A stretch of DNA of 32,806 nucleotides, from NCBI GenBank assembly GCA_905234855.1, contig CAJOIU010000018.1, positions 1 to 32,806 of the forward strand, given 5' to 3'. A model generated the notes under the pieces. The model saw only the letters and a list, made by a program, of their open reading frames with translations, had not been told where the DNA came from and searched no databases. Made by a program: the position numbers and the translations under genes. Of this stretch, positions 27,290-32,806 are shown piece after piece. How positions within the stretch are numbered: position 1 is the stretch's first letter; the number at the start of each line of letters is the position of its first letter. This DNA is from an uncultured Oscillospiraceae bacterium (lineage in GTDB: Bacteria > Bacillota > Clostridia > Oscillospirales > Oscillospiraceae).

Positions 27290-27961
27290 TTGCAGGCAAG
27301 ACTTACCGAGATCCGCCGCAGCGAGGCGCTGCGCTATCTCGGCTGGAAGGGCGGCGCGCTGCCGCCGGAGATCGAGGCGGATATCGCGCGCTGCGAGGCG
27401 CTGCTGATGGAAACGGCGCGTCCCCGGGCGGTATGGCGGAAATTCGGGCTTGCGCCGGACGGCGCGATGCTGGGAACGGATTTTCGTCCCGCGGGGGAGG
27501 ATATCCGCCGCTTGCTTTCCGGCTGCGAATCCGCCGTGCTCATAGCGGCGACGCTTGGCGCGGAGGCGGAAACGCTTCTGCGGCGGATGCAGGTGCGGAG
27601 CATGGCGGACGCGGTGATCCTCGATGCCTGCGCGGGCGCCGCCATCGAAAACGTCTGCGATAATCTCTGTACCGATATTGCGGCGGAGCTTGCGCCGATG
27701 TTTCTCACTGAGCGCTTCAGCCCGGGCTACGGCGATCTTCCGCTGGCGCAGCAGCGGGAGCTGTGCCGGGTGCTGGACGTGGGGCGCCGCATCGGCGTGA
27801 GCCTGTCGGACGGCGGCATCATGATCCCTCAAAAAACGGTGACGGCGATCCTAGGCGTGTCGCCGATCCCCACGGCAAAGCGGCGCCGCGGCTGCGAGGG
27901 CTGTGAGCTGTATGAGACCTGCGCCTATCGAAAGGACGGAACGACCTGTGGGAAATCCTGA
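27290..27961 (+). CDS. Methionine synthase reactivation domain protein (separate MetH activation subunit)
   Basis: 223 residues corresponding to the C-terminal AdoMet-binding activation domain of cobalamin-dependent MetH, encoded as its own gene. The signature FSPGYGDLPLAQQ and the following GVSLSDGGIMIPQKTVTAILG are those of the family. The Cys-rich tail (CEGCELYETC and a final TTCG) could bind a metal or cluster. TTG at 27290 is chosen as start because AAGGGAGGTG (27273-27282) is spaced for it. The gene overlaps the MetH GTG start by 14 bases. The role, inferred from family knowledge, is reductive methylation of oxidised cob(II)alamin on the partner. Confidence 0.88.
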   Translation: MQARLTEIRRSEALRYLGWKGGALPPEIEADIARCEALLMETARPRAVWRKFGLAPDGAMLGTDFRPAGEDIRRLLSGCESAVLIAATLGAEAETLLRRMQVRSMADAVILDACAGAAIENVCDNLCTDIAAELAPMFLTERFSPGYGDLPLAQQRELCRVLDVGRRIGVSLSDGGIMIPQKTVTAILGVSPIPTAKRRRGCEGCELYETCAYRKDGTTCGKS

Positions 27962-30299
27962 AATCATCTTGTTGGACGGCGCCACCGGCACGATGCTGCA
28001 GGCGGCGGGGCTGCCGGTGGGGGAGCTGCCGGAGGTATGGAACCTTACCCATTCCGAGACGGTGACGGAGATCGGCCGCCGTTATATCGAGGCGGGCAGC
28101 GATATCATCTATGCCAATACCTTCGGCGCGAACCGGCATAAGCTCGCCCGCAGCGGATATACCCCCGCGGAGCTGATCGCTGCAGGCATCCGCTGCGCGC
28201 GGGAGGCCGCCGGGGACGCGGATGTGCGCGTCGCGCTCGATATCGGCCCCATAGGGCAGCTTCTCGAGCCGCTCGGCACGATGTCCTTTACCGAGGCGTA
28301 TGATATCTATAAAGAAATGGTGATCGCCGGTGCGGCAGCGGGCGCCGATCTCGTCGTCTTCGAAACGATGAGCGATCTATATGAGGTCAAGGCCGCCGTG
28401 CTGGCCGCGAAGGAGAACACCTCCCTGCCCGTGTGGGTGACGATGACCTTCGAGGCGACGGGGCGCACCTTCGTGGGCACGACCGTTCCCGCTATGGGGC
28501 TGACGCTCACCGGCCTCGGCGTGGACGCGCTTGGCTTCAACTGCAGCCTCGGCCCCAAGGAGCTGCTGCCCATGATCGCGGAGCTGCGGGAATGGACGGA
28601 GCTGCCGCTCATCCTCAAGCCCAACGCGGGACTGCCCGACCCCGCCACGGGAAAATATACCGTCACGCCGGAGGAATTTGCGTCGGAGCTGTCCGGCGCG
28701 GCGGCGCTGGGCGTCGGCATATTCGGCGGCTGCTGCGGCACCACGCCGGATTTTATCCGCGCGTCCGCGCAGAAGCTTGCGGGGCTATCTCCCGCCCGGC
28801 GTCCCGCGGCGAAGAGGCGGGGCGTATGCTCGGCGGCGCAGACAGCGGCGTTTTCCGGCGTGTGCGTCATCGGTGAGCGGATCAACCCCACCGGAAAAAA
28901 ACGCTTCCAGCAGGCGCTGCGGGAAGCGGATATCGGCTATATCATCGAGCGTGCGGTGGAGCAGCAGGATGCCGGAGCGGATATTCTGGATATCAATGTG
29001 GGGCTTCCCGGTGTCGATGAAGTGGATATGATGGAAAAAGTGGTGAAAGCGGTGCAATCTGTCACTGATCTTCCGCTGCAGATCGACTCCTCCGATCCCG
29101 CCGCCATCGAGGCGGGGCTTCGGGTGGTGAACGGCCGCGCCATCGTCAATTCCGTGAACGGCCGCCGGGAGGTTCTGGACGCGATCCTGCCGCTGTGCAA
29201 AAAATACGGCGCGGCGGTGGTGGGGCTGTGCCTCGACGAAAACGGCATCCCCGCGGACGCGGCGGGACGCATCGCCATCGCGGAGCGGATCCTCGAGGCG
29301 GCACTTTCCTACGGCATCCCGCGGGAGGACGTGCTGATCGACTGCCTGACGCTGACGGTTTCCGCCCAGCAGGAGCAGGCGGCGGAGACGCTGAAGGCCG
29401 TGCGGTACGTTACGGAGGAGCTGGGACTCCATACCGTGCTGGGGGTGAGCAATATCTCCTTCGGCCTGCCCGCACGGGAGAATATCACCGTGAGCTTTCT
29501 GACGCAGGCGATGCACGCTGGGCTGGATCTTCCCATCGTGAACCCGAACCAGACCGCCATCATGGACGCGGTGGCGGCCTTCAAGGTGCTGTCCGGGCAG
29601 GATCGGGACAGCGAGGCTTATATCGCGCGGTTTGCCGAGACGGCGCAGGCCGCCCCCTCCGCGCCGTCCGCTTCGGCACAGATGACGCTGGAGGCCGCCA
29701 TCGGCCGCGGCTTGAAGCAGGAGACGGCGGCGCTCACGGAAAAGGCGCTGGAGACCATGACGGAGCTGGAGGTGGTAAACTCGCTGCTGATCCCCGCGCT
29801 CGACCGCGTGGGCGAGCGGTATGAGAAGCAGGAGATATTCCTGCCGCAGCTCATCAACGCCGCGAACGCCGCGTGCGAGGGCTTTGAGATCATCAAGCGC
29901 CGTATCGCGGAAAAGGGCGGAGGTTCGGTTTCGAAGGGCAAGATCGTGATCGCCACCGTCCACGGCGATATCCACGATATCGGGAAAAATATCGTCCGGG
30001 TCGTGCTGGAAAACTATGGCTATACCGTCATCGACCTCGGCAGGGACGTGCCGGCGGAGACGGTGGTGGAAGCAGCGATCCGGGAGGACGCGAGGCTTGT
30101 CGGTCTGTCCGCGCTGATGACGACCACCGTTGTGAGCATGGCGGAAACCATCGCCGCCCTCCGTAAAAGCGGCCACGACTGCAGGATCATGGTGGGCGGC
30201 GCGGTGCTTACGCCGGAATATGCCGCCGAGATCGGCGCCGACTATTATGCCAAGGACGCCAAGCAGAGCGCCGATATCGCCAAGCTCGTTCTGGGCTGA
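27948..30299 (+). CDS. metH: Cobalamin-dependent methionine synthase lacking the activation domain
   Basis: 783 residues. It transfers methyl from 5-methyltetrahydrofolate via cobalamin to homocysteine. The homocysteine domain (about 1-290) has the zinc ligands Cys199, Cys262 and Cys263 (FGGCCGTTPDF). The pterin domain is at about 310-560 (VIGERINPTG, then LQIDSSDP). The cobalamin cap and Rossmann domain (about 590-783) has GDIHDIGKN with the axial His676. It stops where E. coli MetH would continue into the activation domain, which is the preceding gene. The GTG start with AAAGGA 11 bases upstream lies inside that gene, so the two are coupled. No cobalamin riboswitch is visible upstream. Confidence 0.95.
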   Translation: MGNPEIILLDGATGTMLQAAGLPVGELPEVWNLTHSETVTEIGRRYIEAGSDIIYANTFGANRHKLARSGYTPAELIAAGIRCAREAAGDADVRVALDIGPIGQLLEPLGTMSFTEAYDIYKEMVIAGAAAGADLVVFETMSDLYEVKAAVLAAKENTSLPVWVTMTFEATGRTFVGTTVPAMGLTLTGLGVDALGFNCSLGPKELLPMIAELREWTELPLILKPNAGLPDPATGKYTVTPEEFASELSGAAALGVGIFGGCCGTTPDFIRASAQKLAGLSPARRPAAKRRGVCSAAQTAAFSGVCVIGERINPTGKKRFQQALREADIGYIIERAVEQQDAGADILDINVGLPGVDEVDMMEKVVKAVQSVTDLPLQIDSSDPAAIEAGLRVVNGRAIVNSVNGRREVLDAILPLCKKYGAAVVGLCLDENGIPADAAGRIAIAERILEAALSYGIPREDVLIDCLTLTVSAQQEQAAETLKAVRYVTEELGLHTVLGVSNISFGLPARENITVSFLTQAMHAGLDLPIVNPNQTAIMDAVAAFKVLSGQDRDSEAYIARFAETAQAAPSAPSASAQMTLEAAIGRGLKQETAALTEKALETMTELEVVNSLLIPALDRVGERYEKQEIFLPQLINAANAACEGFEIIKRRIAEKGGGSVSKGKIVIATVHGDIHDIGKNIVRVVLENYGYTVIDLGRDVPAETVVEAAIREDARLVGLSALMTTTVVSMAETIAALRKSGHDCRIMVGGAVLTPEYAAEIGADYYAKDAKQSADIAKLVLG

Positions 30300-30313
30300 C
30301 AGAAACAGAGTCC

Positions 30314-30345
30314 ATCCCGCGCCGCAGCCCGCGGCGCGGGATTTC
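30314..30345 (+). terminator. Terminator after metH
   Basis: A perfect 12-bp GC stem (30314-30325 with 30331-30342) with a 5-base loop, followed only by TTTC. It is strong as a structure but weak in its T-run. Confidence 0.65.
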
Positions 30346-30376
30346 TGCGCCCTGAAATATAAACCGAAATTACCTA

Positions 30377-30405
30377 TTGACAAAGTGGGTTTAACGTGTT
30401 AATAT
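30377..30405 (+). promoter_or_regulatory. Promoter of the leader peptide and metY
   Basis: TTGACA (30377-30382), 17-bp spacer, TAATAT (30400-30405). The start is expected near 30412, 38 bases before the leader ATG. Confidence 0.85.
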
Positions 30406-30449
30406 CATAAACATACAAGGTTGGTTGGTAATTCAAGGAGACAACAGGC

Positions 30450-30512
30450 ATGAGCATCATCATAAAGCAGCTCCGGCACAACTTCCGCAACGGGCGAATG
30501 TGCCGTGTGTAA
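30450..30512 (+). CDS. 20-residue basic leader peptide with one Cys codon near its end
   Basis: ATG at 30450 to TAA at 30510-30512 follows a strong AAGGAG site (30435-30440). The peptide is MSIIIKQLRHNFRNGRMCRV: a short hydrophobic start, then six basic residues including His. The single Cys codon (TGC, 30501-30503) is third from the stop. The gene lies between a clear promoter and the sulfur-assimilation gene metY. Its final bases form the left arm of a hairpin over the metY start (see the attenuator entry). I infer a regulatory role. It resembles in arrangement the Cys-ending leader peptides known upstream of actinobacterial sulfur genes, but I claim no homology. Confidence 0.75.
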   Translation: MSIIIKQLRHNFRNGRMCRV

Positions 30513-30559
30513 GAAGAACCTGTCAAAATCCAAAAATCTATGAAAGAGGTGCTTACACA
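30506..30559 (+). promoter_or_regulatory. Hairpin hiding the metY ribosome site (candidate Cys-responsive translational attenuator)
   Basis: TGTGTAAG (30506-30513, spanning the leader stop codon) is perfectly complementary to CTTACACA (30552-30559), directly before the metY ATG. Further in, ACCT (30518-30521) pairs with AGGT (30547-30550), the core of the metY ribosome site AGAGGTG (30545-30551). A ribosome stalled at the Cys codon 30501-30503 would cover the left arm and free the site. No intrinsic terminator lies between leader and metY, so control would be at translation. Confidence 0.7.
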
Positions 30560-31843
30560 ATGAGCGAATATAAATTTGAGACTTTGCAGCTTCACGTCGG
30601 TCAGGAAGAGGCCGACCCCGTCACCGACGCCCGGGCGGTGCCGATCTATGCCACGACATCCTATGTGTTCCATAATTCCGAGCACGCGGCGGCGCGCTTC
30701 GGCCTGGCCGACGCGGGCAATATCTACGGACGGCTGACGAACTCCACGCAGGACGTGCTGGAAAAGCGCATCGCGGCGCTGGAGGGCGGCGTGGCGGCGC
30801 TGGCGCTGGCTTCCGGCGCGGCGGCGGTCACCTATACGATCCAAGCGCTGGCGCAGGCGGGGGAGCATATCGTCGCCCAGAAAACCATCTATGGCGGCTC
30901 CTCGAACCTGCTGGCGCATACGCTGCCGCTGTACGGCATCACCACGAGCTTTGTGGACGTGCATGACCTCGCGGCGGTGGAGGCGGCGATCCAAGAGAAT
31001 ACCAAGGCCATCTATATCGAAACGCTTGGCAATCCCCATTCCGATATCCCCGATATCGACGCGCTGGCGGCGCTGGCGCATAAGCACGGCCTGCCGCTCG
31101 TCATCGACAACACCTTCGGCACGCCGTATCTCATCCGTCCCATCGAGCACGGCGCGGATATCGTGATCCATTCCGCTACGAAATTCATCGGAGGCCACGG
31201 CACGACGCTGGGCGGCATCATTGTGGATTCCGGCAGGTTCGACTGGACGGCCAGCGGGAAATACGCCCCCATCGCCGCACCGAATCCCAGTTATCACGGG
31301 GTGTCCTTTGTGGCGGCGGCAGGATCGGCCGCGTTCGTGACATATATCCGCGCGATCCTCCTGCGGGATACGGGCGCGACGATCTCGCCGTTTGCGGCGT
31401 TCCTGCTGCTGCAGGGCGTGGAGACGCTTTCGCTTCGCCTCGAGCGCCACGCGGAGAACACCAAAAAGGTCGTGGAATATCTCGCAAATCACCCGCTGGT
31501 GGAGAAGGTGAATCATCCGTCTCTGCAGTCCCATCCCGACCATGCGCTGTATGAGCGATATTTCCCGAACGGCGGCGCATCGATCTTCACCTTTGATATC
31601 AAGGGCGGACAGAGGGAGGCCTTCGCCTTCATCGACAACCTCAAGATTTTCTCCCTGCTGGCAAACGTCGCGGATGTGAAGAGCCTTGTGATCCATCCGG
31701 CCACCACCACCCACTCCCAGCTCTCCCCCGAAGCGCTGCTGGACATCGGCATCAAGCCGAACACCGTCCGGCTCTCCATCGGCACGGAGCACATCGACGA
31801 TATCCTTGCCGATCTCGAGCGCGGCTTTGCCGCCATCGGCTGA
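30560..31843 (+). CDS. metY: O-acetylhomoserine aminocarboxypropyltransferase (O-acetylhomoserine sulfhydrylase)
   Basis: 427 residues, a PLP-dependent Cys/Met-metabolism enzyme. It makes homocysteine from O-acetylhomoserine and sulfide (or methionine from methanethiol), which would feed the neighbouring metH. The opening KFETLQLHVGQEEADP and ATTSYVF, the YGRLTNSTQDVLEKRIAALEGG region, and the PLP lysine Lys208 in HSATKFIGGHGTT are visible. A long loop after the PLP lysine (residues about 215-250) is the mark of the MetY branch versus MetB/MetC. The start is ATG 30560 with AGAGGTG; an in-frame open stretch upstream is covered by the leader peptide and is not expected to be translated in this frame. 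Confidence 0.95.
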   Translation: MSEYKFETLQLHVGQEEADPVTDARAVPIYATTSYVFHNSEHAAARFGLADAGNIYGRLTNSTQDVLEKRIAALEGGVAALALASGAAAVTYTIQALAQAGEHIVAQKTIYGGSSNLLAHTLPLYGITTSFVDVHDLAAVEAAIQENTKAIYIETLGNPHSDIPDIDALAALAHKHGLPLVIDNTFGTPYLIRPIEHGADIVIHSATKFIGGHGTTLGGIIVDSGRFDWTASGKYAPIAAPNPSYHGVSFVAAAGSAAFVTYIRAILLRDTGATISPFAAFLLLQGVETLSLRLERHAENTKKVVEYLANHPLVEKVNHPSLQSHPDHALYERYFPNGGASIFTFDIKGGQREAFAFIDNLKIFSLLANVADVKSLVIHPATTTHSQLSPEALLDIGIKPNTVRLSIGTEHIDDILADLERGFAAIG

Positions 31844-31861
31844 TCCCCATCCCCATAAGCG

Positions 31862-31889
31862 CCCCCGCACGGATCGTTCCGCGCGGGGG
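31862..31889 (+). terminator. Terminator after metY
   Basis: CCCCCGC (31862-31868) pairs with GCGGGGG (31883-31889), with an inner CGGA/TCCG stem and a TCGT loop, interrupted by one A-C mismatch. It is followed by a weak T-rich stretch (TCTGTTATCTT) that runs into the next -35 box. Confidence 0.75.
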
Positions 31890-31898
31890 TCTGTTATC

Positions 31899-31927
31899 TT
31901 GACAAAGGAAAAACAAAGATATAAAAT
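31899..31927 (+). promoter_or_regulatory. Promoter of the secreted protein gene
   Basis: TTGACA (31899-31904), 17-bp spacer, TAAAAT (31922-31927), in a locally AT-rich stretch. Confidence 0.85.
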
Positions 31928-31963
31928 ATTTCCATCCAAATCATTGAAAAGAGAGGGCTAAAA

Positions 31964-32761
31964 ATGAATCGTACTATCAAACGCATCCTTGCGATCACCT
32001 GCGTCGTCGTGCTGGTGATGTCCATGTCCATGTCCGCCTTTGCCGCGGGGACGGTCACCCCTGTCACGGGAACACAGACGGTGTATATACCGAGCAGCAG
32101 CGGGGGCAGCGTCAATATCGGGCTGGCCTACGGAACCAAGAGCTTTACCATCAATCGCTCCTCCGTCAAGGTGACGGCGGGCACGACCGGTGCAAAGATG
32201 GTCGGCTTCGCGAAGCGTAATAACAGCTATTCCAGCAACTATCAGTACAACTACAGCGGCTCCGAGTGGACCACCGAAAGTTACTCCGATGCGGACTACA
32301 GCTATGATATCAACCTGCAGGTGAGCGCCAAGGGTACCGCCAAGGTCACCTATAAGATCGGTTCCACATCCTATACGACCAGCGTCAAGGTTCTGGCGTA
32401 TACCAATCCTGTCAAGTCCATCACCCTAAACGGCGTATACAGCAGCAAGAGCTTTGCGTCCCTTACAAAGAGCTCGATAGATCCCAGCAAGGATCTGACG
32501 CTCAGTACCAAGACGACGGGCGCAAGACTGAAGGTCACACCGGCCAGTGGTTGGAAGATCGCTTACGCTTCCATCCATGACAATTCCTCCGGCATGTCCA
32601 AGTCGATCTCCTCGTGGAACAAGGGACTCAGCTCTGTTTCCCTGTATTGGGGCACGCTGTATGCCAGCCACAACTATTCCATCGATATCGAATATATTAA
32701 TACCTCCAACGGCGCTACGATGAGTACTTATTACTCCGTCTTCGGCAAATATGCCAGCTAA
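31964..32761 (+). CDS. Secreted protein of unknown function
   Basis: 265 residues. A clear Sec signal peptide has basic NRTIKR, a hydrophobic core ILAITCVVVLVM, and cleavage after AFA at about residue 28. The mature protein has no Cys and is rich in Ser, Thr, Tyr, Lys and Gly. It alternates short strands typical of beta-sandwich domains: residues about 36-150 (SVNIGLAYGTKSFTINRSSVKV then KGTAKVTYKIGSTSYTTSVKVLA) look like one Ig-like (BIG-type) unit. A second, less regular unit follows (NPVKSITLNG to the end). No LPXTG, SLH, cell-wall repeat or lipobox is seen, so it would be released or held non-covalently. Its codon use is less GC-extreme than its neighbours'. GAGAGGG precedes the ATG. Confidence 0.8.
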   Translation: MNRTIKRILAITCVVVLVMSMSMSAFAAGTVTPVTGTQTVYIPSSSGGSVNIGLAYGTKSFTINRSSVKVTAGTTGAKMVGFAKRNNSYSSNYQYNYSGSEWTTESYSDADYSYDINLQVSAKGTAKVTYKIGSTSYTTSVKVLAYTNPVKSITLNGVYSSKSFASLTKSSIDPSKDLTLSTKTTGARLKVTPASGWKIAYASIHDNSSGMSKSISSWNKGLSSVSLYWGTLYASHNYSIDIEYINTSNGATMSTYYSVFGKYAS

Positions 32762-32779
32762 ACCATAGGAATGCGACAT

Positions 32780-32806
32780 CCCCCGCGCGGCGCAGCCGCG
32801 CGGGGG
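32780..32806 (+). terminator. Terminator stem at the window end
   Basis: A perfect 12-bp stem (32780-32791 with 32795-32806) with a GCA loop, 18 bases after the secreted-protein stop. Any T-run lies beyond the window. Confidence 0.7.

Follow-up and report, generated by a model that had tools for sequence, protein, structure and literature searches.

A conserved leader ORF with a CGA-ATG core upstream of metY in Clostridia, a probable ribosome-mediated attenuator of sulfur amino acid genes

The window analysed here is a stretch of 32,806 nucleotides from an uncultured Oscillospiraceae bacterium (GenBank assembly GCA_905234855.1, contig CAJOIU010000018.1, positions 1 to 32,806 of the forward strand). 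Near its end, a 20-codon ORF lies between a promoter and metY. This raises the question of whether translation of the ORF controls metY and, if so, which signal it reads. The original prediction was of a translational attenuator in which a ribosome paused at the Cys codon of the leader would expose the metY ribosome site. The leader probably controls metY as a ribosome-mediated translational attenuator, and it belongs to a conserved, widespread family. Sequence comparison suggests that in this family a ribosome stalled at a fixed spot probably turns sulfur amino acid genes on at cysteine or methionine shortage.

Leader and predicted fold at the start of metY

Direct reading and the list of ORFs bear out the promoter, the leader ORF and the Cys codon of the original prediction (Table 1). 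The 8-bp complement between the end of the leader and the bases before metY is perfect, and a further 4 bp (ACCT and AGGT) pair with the metY ribosome site. The expected lack of a terminator and of a T-box also holds. No terminator was found in a scan of 29900-32806, and no Rfam family, including the T-box (RF00230) and the SAM riboswitch (RF00162), reaches its gathering score in the window. The metH-like gene before metY lacks the C-terminal part, because its match to TIGR02082 ends at position 846 of 1182. In the gap between metH and metY, a G+C-rich hairpin followed by a weak T run can be seen by eye at 30317-30343. It is not among the results of the terminator scan and is possibly the end of the metH transcript.

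Table 1. Positions of the leader, its predicted pairing arms and the neighbouring features in the window.
Feature	Position	Strand	Remarks
metH-like gene, 798 aa, gene before metY	27903..30299		TIGR02082 positions 4-846 of 1182, below cut-off
Palindromic operator-like site ACCTATTGACAAAGTGGGT	30372..30390	+	Covers the -35 box; Rrf2-type repressor possible, identity inferred
Sigma-70 type promoter, TTGACA-17-TAATAT	30377..30405	+	Consensus match only; -35 TTGACA 30377-30382, spacer 17 nt, -10 TAATAT 30400-30405, TG before -10
Leader ORF Shine-Dalgarno AAGGAG	30435..30440	+	Direct reading
Leader ORF, 20 aa, MSIIIKQLRHNFRNGRMCRV	30450..30512	+	ATG at 30450, stop TAA 30510-30512
Conserved core encoding NFRNGRM	30480..30500	+	Motif in 57 of 128 metY loci
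Codon pair CGA-ATG (Arg-Met), predicted parking site	30495..30500	+	CGA-ATG in 57 of 57 with alternatives allowed
Sole leader Cys codon TGC, predicted sensing codon	30501..30503	+	Right after CGA-ATG; Cys here in 53 of 100 T leaders
Left arm TGTGTAAG	30506..30513	+	ATG+8 to +15; perfect 8-bp complement of 30552-30559
Left arm ACCT	30518..30521	+	Partner is AGGT of the metY ribosome site
metY ribosome binding site AAAGAGGTG	30543..30551	+	Direct reading; predicted fold covers part
Right arm AGGT	30547..30550	+	Partner is ACCT 30518-30521
Right arm CTTACACA	30552..30559	+	Adjoins the metY ATG on its 5' side
metY, O-acetylhomoserine sulfhydrylase, 427 aa, regulated gene	30560..31843	+	TIGR01326 613.5 bits, cut-off 495.1

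The predicted fold of 30500-30575 has a z of -2.45, and 4 of 200 shuffles are equally stable. The stability of the whole 5' UTR (30412-30580) is ordinary (z = 0.06; 103 of 200 shuffles equally stable). When the bases up to ATG+12, the footprint of a ribosome on Arg-Met, are removed, the prediction makes the metY start 4.21 kcal/mol cheaper to open. The corresponding mean over 100 shuffles is -0.34, and none of the shuffles reaches the value of the window. Sequence lying under a stalled ribosome is thus predicted to sequester the Shine-Dalgarno region, as in the erm and cat leaders. The arms cover the bases before the metY ATG better than the Shine-Dalgarno core, which counts against this model. 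A 20-codon ORF and an 8-bp complement are weak evidence on their own, and with the z of 0.06 for the whole leader they would suit a chance arrangement without function. This explanation, to which we give almost no credence, is refuted by conservation of the leader before sulfur genes in genomes of the order and the class.

Conservation of the leader and the genes it precedes

Homologues of metY were gathered from relatives, the order and public genomes (137 loci). CGAATG occurs within up to 450 bases upstream of metY in 83 of these loci. A few of the occurrences are due to chance (L033, L036, L102 and L128). Read in frame, the remaining loci mostly encode a peptide of the form M...L(L/V)RxN(F/Y)R(F/N/C/Y)GRM. 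A motif search that allowed Arg, Lys, Gln or His followed by Met, Leu, Ile or Val was applied to 128 of the 137 loci (at least 50% identity). The N[FY]RxGRM-type motif is present at 57 sites in 57 loci, with CGA-ATG at every site. The original prediction had been made to depend on conservation in relatives, and the leader ORF is kept there, both in these loci and in the order and class genomes described below.

Comparison of the sequences establishes the leader and its conservation at codon level. Across the 57 sites, the first Arg is encoded by all six codons, Gly by all four, and Asn and Phe/Tyr by both of theirs. CGA is rare in the metY genes of the surveyed loci (52 of 1699 Arg codons) and in three genes of the window (2 of 62). 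The synonymous variation and the fixed CGA indicate that the peptide is selected as a peptide and that CGA is additionally selected as a codon or as bases. The distance from the start codon to CGA is 16 codons in 78 of 100 leaders with the architecture of the window (T leaders, described below). The Shine-Dalgarno sequence and the synonymous variation suggest that the leader is translated from its own ribosome site; some leaders of relatives are without a clear Shine-Dalgarno sequence. The core NFRNGRM goes beyond the original prediction, which had placed the pause at the Cys codon. A Cys codon does follow the core, but the most conserved feature is the CGA-ATG just before it, within NFRxGRM.

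The set of 140 leaders used for the comparisons below was gathered entirely through CGAATG, so the universality of CGA-ATG is not demonstrable from it. Invariance of CGA-ATG rests only on the 57 of 57 sites of the NFRxG type and on 54 of 60 sites in a search that accepted any MGN codon. L036, L102, L128 and the first CGAATG of L048 were left out of the set as not leader-like. Also left out were L182, L185-L187, L196, L212 and sequences identical around the core. A Pfam and NCBIfam scan of five leaders gave no NCBIfam match and one sub-threshold Pfam match (CART, E=0.035).

Among the 127 metY loci with 60% identity or more, 45 lack CGAATG; two of these 45 have fewer than 250 bases upstream. The closest MetY, that of L002 (94% identical to the MetY of the window), is among these loci. 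Together with the other loci without CGAATG, L002 suggests that the leader has been gained and lost. The named carriers include two isolates, Oribacterium sp. NK2B42 (L127) and Atopobacter sp. AH10 (L132), and are otherwise mostly metagenome bins. An exception to the core was found by eye in L104, which encodes NFRNGVM with GTC-ATG in place of CGA-ATG. The loci without CGAATG and this exception count against the attenuator model. L104 lies on a contig labelled Treponemataceae and reads NFRNGVMCCCCF. L131, on a contig labelled Treponema, also carries a leader of the family. The leaders on these spirochaete-labelled bins may represent transfer or misbinning.

A known RNA element was also sought. 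The scan covered the window and, of the 45 metY loci that lack CGAATG, 40 (all but L004, L122, L123, L133 and L134), and no Rfam family reached its gathering score. An RNA that binds a protein or a metabolite, with the ORF incidental, would explain why CGAATG is kept at base level and why TG follows it directly in 81 of 104 T leaders. Such an RNA is hard to reconcile with the synonymous changes at the remaining motif codons, the mostly fixed length of the ORF, the lack of an Rfam family in the window and the loci scanned, and the arm sequences that differ between loci, and we regard it as very unlikely.

The genes downstream were surveyed with two patterns. The first was a degenerate pattern in which the second Arg codon was free (any MGN), and it was applied to 295 genomes of the order. 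It found 60 sites in 53 genomes, and the reversed-pattern control found 19. CGA is present at 54 of the 60 sites, all of which precede sulfur genes. Thirty-eight of these 54 lie directly before metY loci already collected. The other 16 precede MetQ/MetNI-type methionine transporters (8), NMT1/SsuA-like transporters (5) and further metY genes (3). Four of the six matches without CGA (L182, L185, L186 and L187) lie in or over other genes by our own reading, which left out G060 and G111:C10, and were rejected.

The second pattern had CGA fixed and was applied to 391 genomes of the class. It found 30 sites in 28 genomes (reversed control, 3), and three sites are shared with the order search. Of these sites, 26 precede metY, 2 precede metQ and 2 lie elsewhere, with sulfur genes at 28 of the 30. 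The matches L196 and L212 were rejected because the genes downstream are not sulfur genes. For nine proteins, drawn from eight leader loci, the target names come from family scans, and for the rest from reading of translations; the SsuA match (L184) is under the curated cut-off. The targets in the order and class genomes indicate that the family serves sulfur amino acid supply. The transporter targets of the MetQ/MetNI and NMT1/SsuA types extend the original prediction, which concerned metY. In L171 and L172, an NMT1-like transporter gene under the leader is followed by a gene whose product, judged by eye, resembles a mandelate racemase/enolase-type enzyme. The substrate of this transporter may be an unusual sulfur source.

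Two architectures and the placement of Cys codons

The leaders fall into two architectures, and four leaders of ambiguous architecture (L059, L062, L171 and L172) were left out of the comparison. In architecture T, which is that of the window, the strand predicted to cover the ribosome site of the gene starts at CGA-ATG and the Cys codons come after. In architecture X, a terminator type that is new relative to the original prediction, an antiterminator arm starts just after CGA-ATG and the Cys codons come before. The distance from CGA to the gene is 62-123 bases in 43 of 49 T leaders before metY. For X leaders, the distance to metY is 153-253 bases (25 loci).

In the T leaders, the stretch from ATG on is predicted to pair with the ribosome site of the gene. 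Several T loci have TACCTC opposite GAGGTA, a pairing that implies that the residues of the tail are dictated by the arm. Opening costs were calculated for a short-gap set of 44 out of 81 loci, chosen as not of type B and with a gap of 130 bases or less (the set includes L128, which was later dropped). With the footprint to ATG+12 removed, the predicted opening cost falls by a mean of 3.36 kcal/mol, versus 0.57 in shuffles. The gain has p<=0.05 in 15 of the 44 loci. It is below 1.2 kcal/mol in 15 of the 44, which counts against the model. After removal of near-duplicates, 33 loci remain, L128 included, and the Wilcoxon p is 2.5e-6.

Mean predicted pairing with the start region, over 43 loci, is 0.17-0.35 at ATG+0 to +13 and 0.061 or less beyond ATG+16. 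ATG+0 to +13 is the stretch expected under a ribosome holding ATG. Pairing with the start region is also predicted upstream (0.13-0.21 at ATG-9 to -6 and 0.14-0.19 at -3 and -2), which counts against the model. The opening-cost and pairing profiles lend computational support to the predicted translational attenuation by a ribosome parked in the leader.

In all 36 X leaders, arm 1 (CUCCCGGGCA, usually from ATG+8) and arm 3 (UGCCCGGGAG) form 8 bp or more, a count that is not independent since the X class is partly defined by its arms. In 29 of the 36, arm 3 also pairs with arm 4 to give a terminator that has a T run. Pairing of arms 1 and 3 is mostly kept at position 8 (GC 25, GU 8, AU 3) and at position 10 (AU 25, UA 6, UG 2, unpaired 3). 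Mutually exclusive RNA structures are predicted in both architectures, weakly so in 15 of the 44 short-gap T loci. All X leaders were found through CGAATG, and its invariance among them is that of a search handle. A search with an X pattern found ten sites in eight of the 391 class genomes (reversed control, 3). These precede metQ (4), metY (2), an amino acid transporter permease (2), a PLP enzyme of Cys/Met metabolism (1) and a cysK fragment with GCS2 (1). In L218 (1313-2831), the X leader is followed by a fragment that matches only the C-terminal third of CysK, and then by a glutamate-cysteine ligase-like gene. The fragment is a possible pseudogene or relic.

The placement of Cys codons differs between the architectures. 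A tail after Arg-Met is present in 70 of 100 T leaders, and 67 of these 70 have Cys within six codons after ATG; in X leaders this is the case in 6 of 36. Cys makes up 122 of 350 residues (35%) in the first six positions of T tails, versus 13 of 1404 in N-terminal parts across the full set of 140 leaders. The Cys share of metY codons is 0.07%. Before CGA, Cys is present in 33 of 36 X leaders versus 6 of 100 T leaders (p=4.6e-22). Common X forms are M-C-C-R-M and N-F-R-C-G-R-M. Cys codons therefore sit, in both T and X, where a stall should give the on state. This placement of end-product codons, where a stall would shift the RNA pairing, extends to the single Cys codon of the window. It supports ribosome-mediated, cysteine-responsive attenuation and is the strongest argument for sensing by Cys codons.

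The predicted Cys signal thus stands for most relatives, but not as the sole signal. Thirty of 100 T leaders, for example L011, L170 and L208, have no Cys codon and end in RM-stop, which rules out Cys alone. A Met-tRNA or nascent-peptide signal probably contributes. The stop codon is UGA in 26 of these 30 leaders versus 30 of the 70 tailed leaders (p=5e-5). Read-through of UGA into a hidden Cys tail was considered and rejected, as Cys after the stop (9 of 180 codons) is not clearly enriched.

Two explanations that overlap partly with the attenuator model bear on these leaders. In the first, the hungry codon would be the AUG after CGA and the Cys codons would be a second input. Each of the 57 NFRxG leaders has ATG at this place, in a search that would also have accepted Leu, Ile or Val. 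Met makes up 33 of 144 residues in the four codons before CGA in X leaders versus 2 of 400 in T leaders, and five of nine T leaders before metQ genes are of the RM-stop form. In the genome of the window, a T-box precedes a metNI-like pair, and its specifier, in our own reading of the alignment, is AUG. The extreme enrichment of Cys in T tails does not fit a Met-tRNA sensor, and in X leaders a stall on AUG itself would mask part of arm 1. We consider sensing of Met-tRNA a serious contender, although the balance is against it.

In the second, NFRxGRM would arrest the ribosome at Met18 on a small molecule of sulfur metabolism, as in TnaC, and the Cys codons would only tune the response. Such a sensor would account for a peptide kept despite synonymous change and at mostly fixed length, and for the RM-stop leaders and their excess of UGA. 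Alone, it gives no reason for the 35% Cys in T tails. In addition, the NFRxG part is absent from 24 of 36 X leaders, which mostly have M/C-C codons instead. A sensor of this kind is rather unlikely.

Comparison also establishes where the Cys codons and, as predicted folds, the arms are placed in the two architectures. From this we infer stalling, its trigger, the off and on states and the roles of CGA and of the peptide as follows. In the preferred model of attenuation, the leader would be translated fast under sulfur-replete conditions and the ribosome would leave. This would leave the bases just after CGA-ATG free to pair with the ribosome site and start region of metY, keeping the gene off. 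A shortage of charged Cys-tRNA, and probably of charged Met-tRNA, would stall the ribosome on Arg-Met or directly beyond it; the rare CGA codon and the nascent NFRxGR peptide may slow translation there. CGA is usually read via an inosine-adenine wobble pair, which may make it slow. The stalled ribosome would mask the left arm and free the metY start, and metY would be on.

In X leaders, starvation at the Cys codons before CGA would leave arm 1 free and give read-through, and CGA-ATG could keep the ribosome of a replete cell over arm 1, allowing the terminator to form. The role of CGA-ATG in T leaders could be to sensitise the stall. A starved ribosome would cover the anti-Shine-Dalgarno arm in T and free arm 1 in X, so the placing points to "starved = on" in both. 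A wider reading is tentative and, as a whole, doubtful. It holds that a Clostridia-wide family of sulfur-sensing leaders has a conserved slow CGA-AUG that closes an arrest peptide of 18 residues (NFRxGRM), and that one parking site gives two opposite outputs, a freed ribosome site or a hidden antiterminator arm. Evolution would have relocated the Cys codons to keep "starved = on", and in RM-UGA members the nascent peptide would sense a sulfur metabolite at the stop codon.

Known systems and other control of sulfur genes

Ribosome-mediated attenuation and cysteine-responsive leaders are already known. The translational attenuators of erm and cat genes work through a ribosome that halts within a short leader and so exposes a masked Shine-Dalgarno sequence downstream; their signal is an antibiotic. 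The metY leader would likewise free a ribosome site by a parked ribosome, whereas its signal is probably the charging of Cys-tRNA or Met-tRNA. Before sulfur genes, a stall induced by an antibiotic is not to be expected. TnaC and SpeFL are ligand-sensing arrest peptides with a conserved nascent peptide, arrest near the end and Rho sites; the ligand of TnaC is tryptophan. The metY leader resembles them in its conserved peptide and in the arrest proposed near its end, with which the sequence conservation fits. It differs in having Cys codons and an anti-Shine-Dalgarno arm instead of Rho sites, and it has no known ligand.

Poly-cysteine leaderless short ORFs of mycobacteria reportedly give cysteine-responsive attenuation, to judge by the title of the 2020 work of Canestrari et al. 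The cys leader peptides of Actinobacteria, as far as described in the available part of PMC1262725, have Cys runs near the stop, and those of mycobacteria lack a conserved terminator hairpin. The Clostridia family shares with both a short upstream ORF, Cys codons and sulfur genes. Unlike the Actinobacterial leaders in that partial account, it has a Shine-Dalgarno-led ORF, NFRxGRM, CGA-ATG, Cys tails and predicted anti-Shine-Dalgarno or antiterminator arms. The consecutive Cys run of the mycobacterial ORFs is absent from the leader of the window, which has one Cys codon, and is present in L089 (CCCCC) and L093 (CCC).

The uORFC-8-2 motif before cysS in Rhodobacterales has a conserved uORF, Cys codons and a terminator and is predicted to act by ribosome-mediated attenuation (PMC8632094, available part). 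It differs from the metY leader in belonging to Alphaproteobacteria and to cysS, in tandem Cys usually at positions 14-15 and in being of the terminator type only. The CGA-ATG core is absent from it as described in that part of the paper.

The leader family does not appear in the available parts of two sister surveys of bacterial RNA motifs (PMC11109978, PMC6429828), and no description of it was found in the literature searched. As supplements and most subscription papers were outside the search, this absence is weak evidence, and the family is apparently undescribed. If the proposed mechanism is true, many Clostridia gain a leader-peptide regulon for cysteine and methionine supply, in a class where one would look to T-boxes and riboswitches for amino acid control. 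Sharp, testable predictions on amino acid sensing by the ribosome follow from the CGA-AUG pair and from the swap of Cys position between architectures. Because the leader motif is easy to recognise, it can serve as a genomic marker of sulfur genes, some of them for transporters whose substrate is uncertain.

The T-box (RF00230) and the SAM riboswitch (RF00162) control related genes in the genome of the window, and neither matches the metY leader. The SAM riboswitch (L226, G000:C31:9683-9781) precedes metK. The T-box (L227, G000:C8:22645-22880) precedes the metNI-like pair; its score of 91.9 bits falls slightly short of the 93-bit cut-off. Counting the metY leader, this one genome has sulfur genes under RNA control of three kinds. 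Relatives carry the leader before metNIQ instead of a T-box and so use the leader where the genome of the window uses a tRNA sensor.

A loose palindrome pattern like that at 30372-30390 is present in 29 of 127 metY upstream regions, versus a mean of 2.4 (maximum 7) in 50 mononucleotide shuffles. The genome of the window (82.6% complete) contains one Rrf2-type regulator. The recurrent palindrome at the -35 box and this regulator make transcriptional control likely as well. In some relatives, by eye, the palindromes lie beside divergent genes whose start (MIST.GRYALR) resembles that of an Rrf2 regulator.
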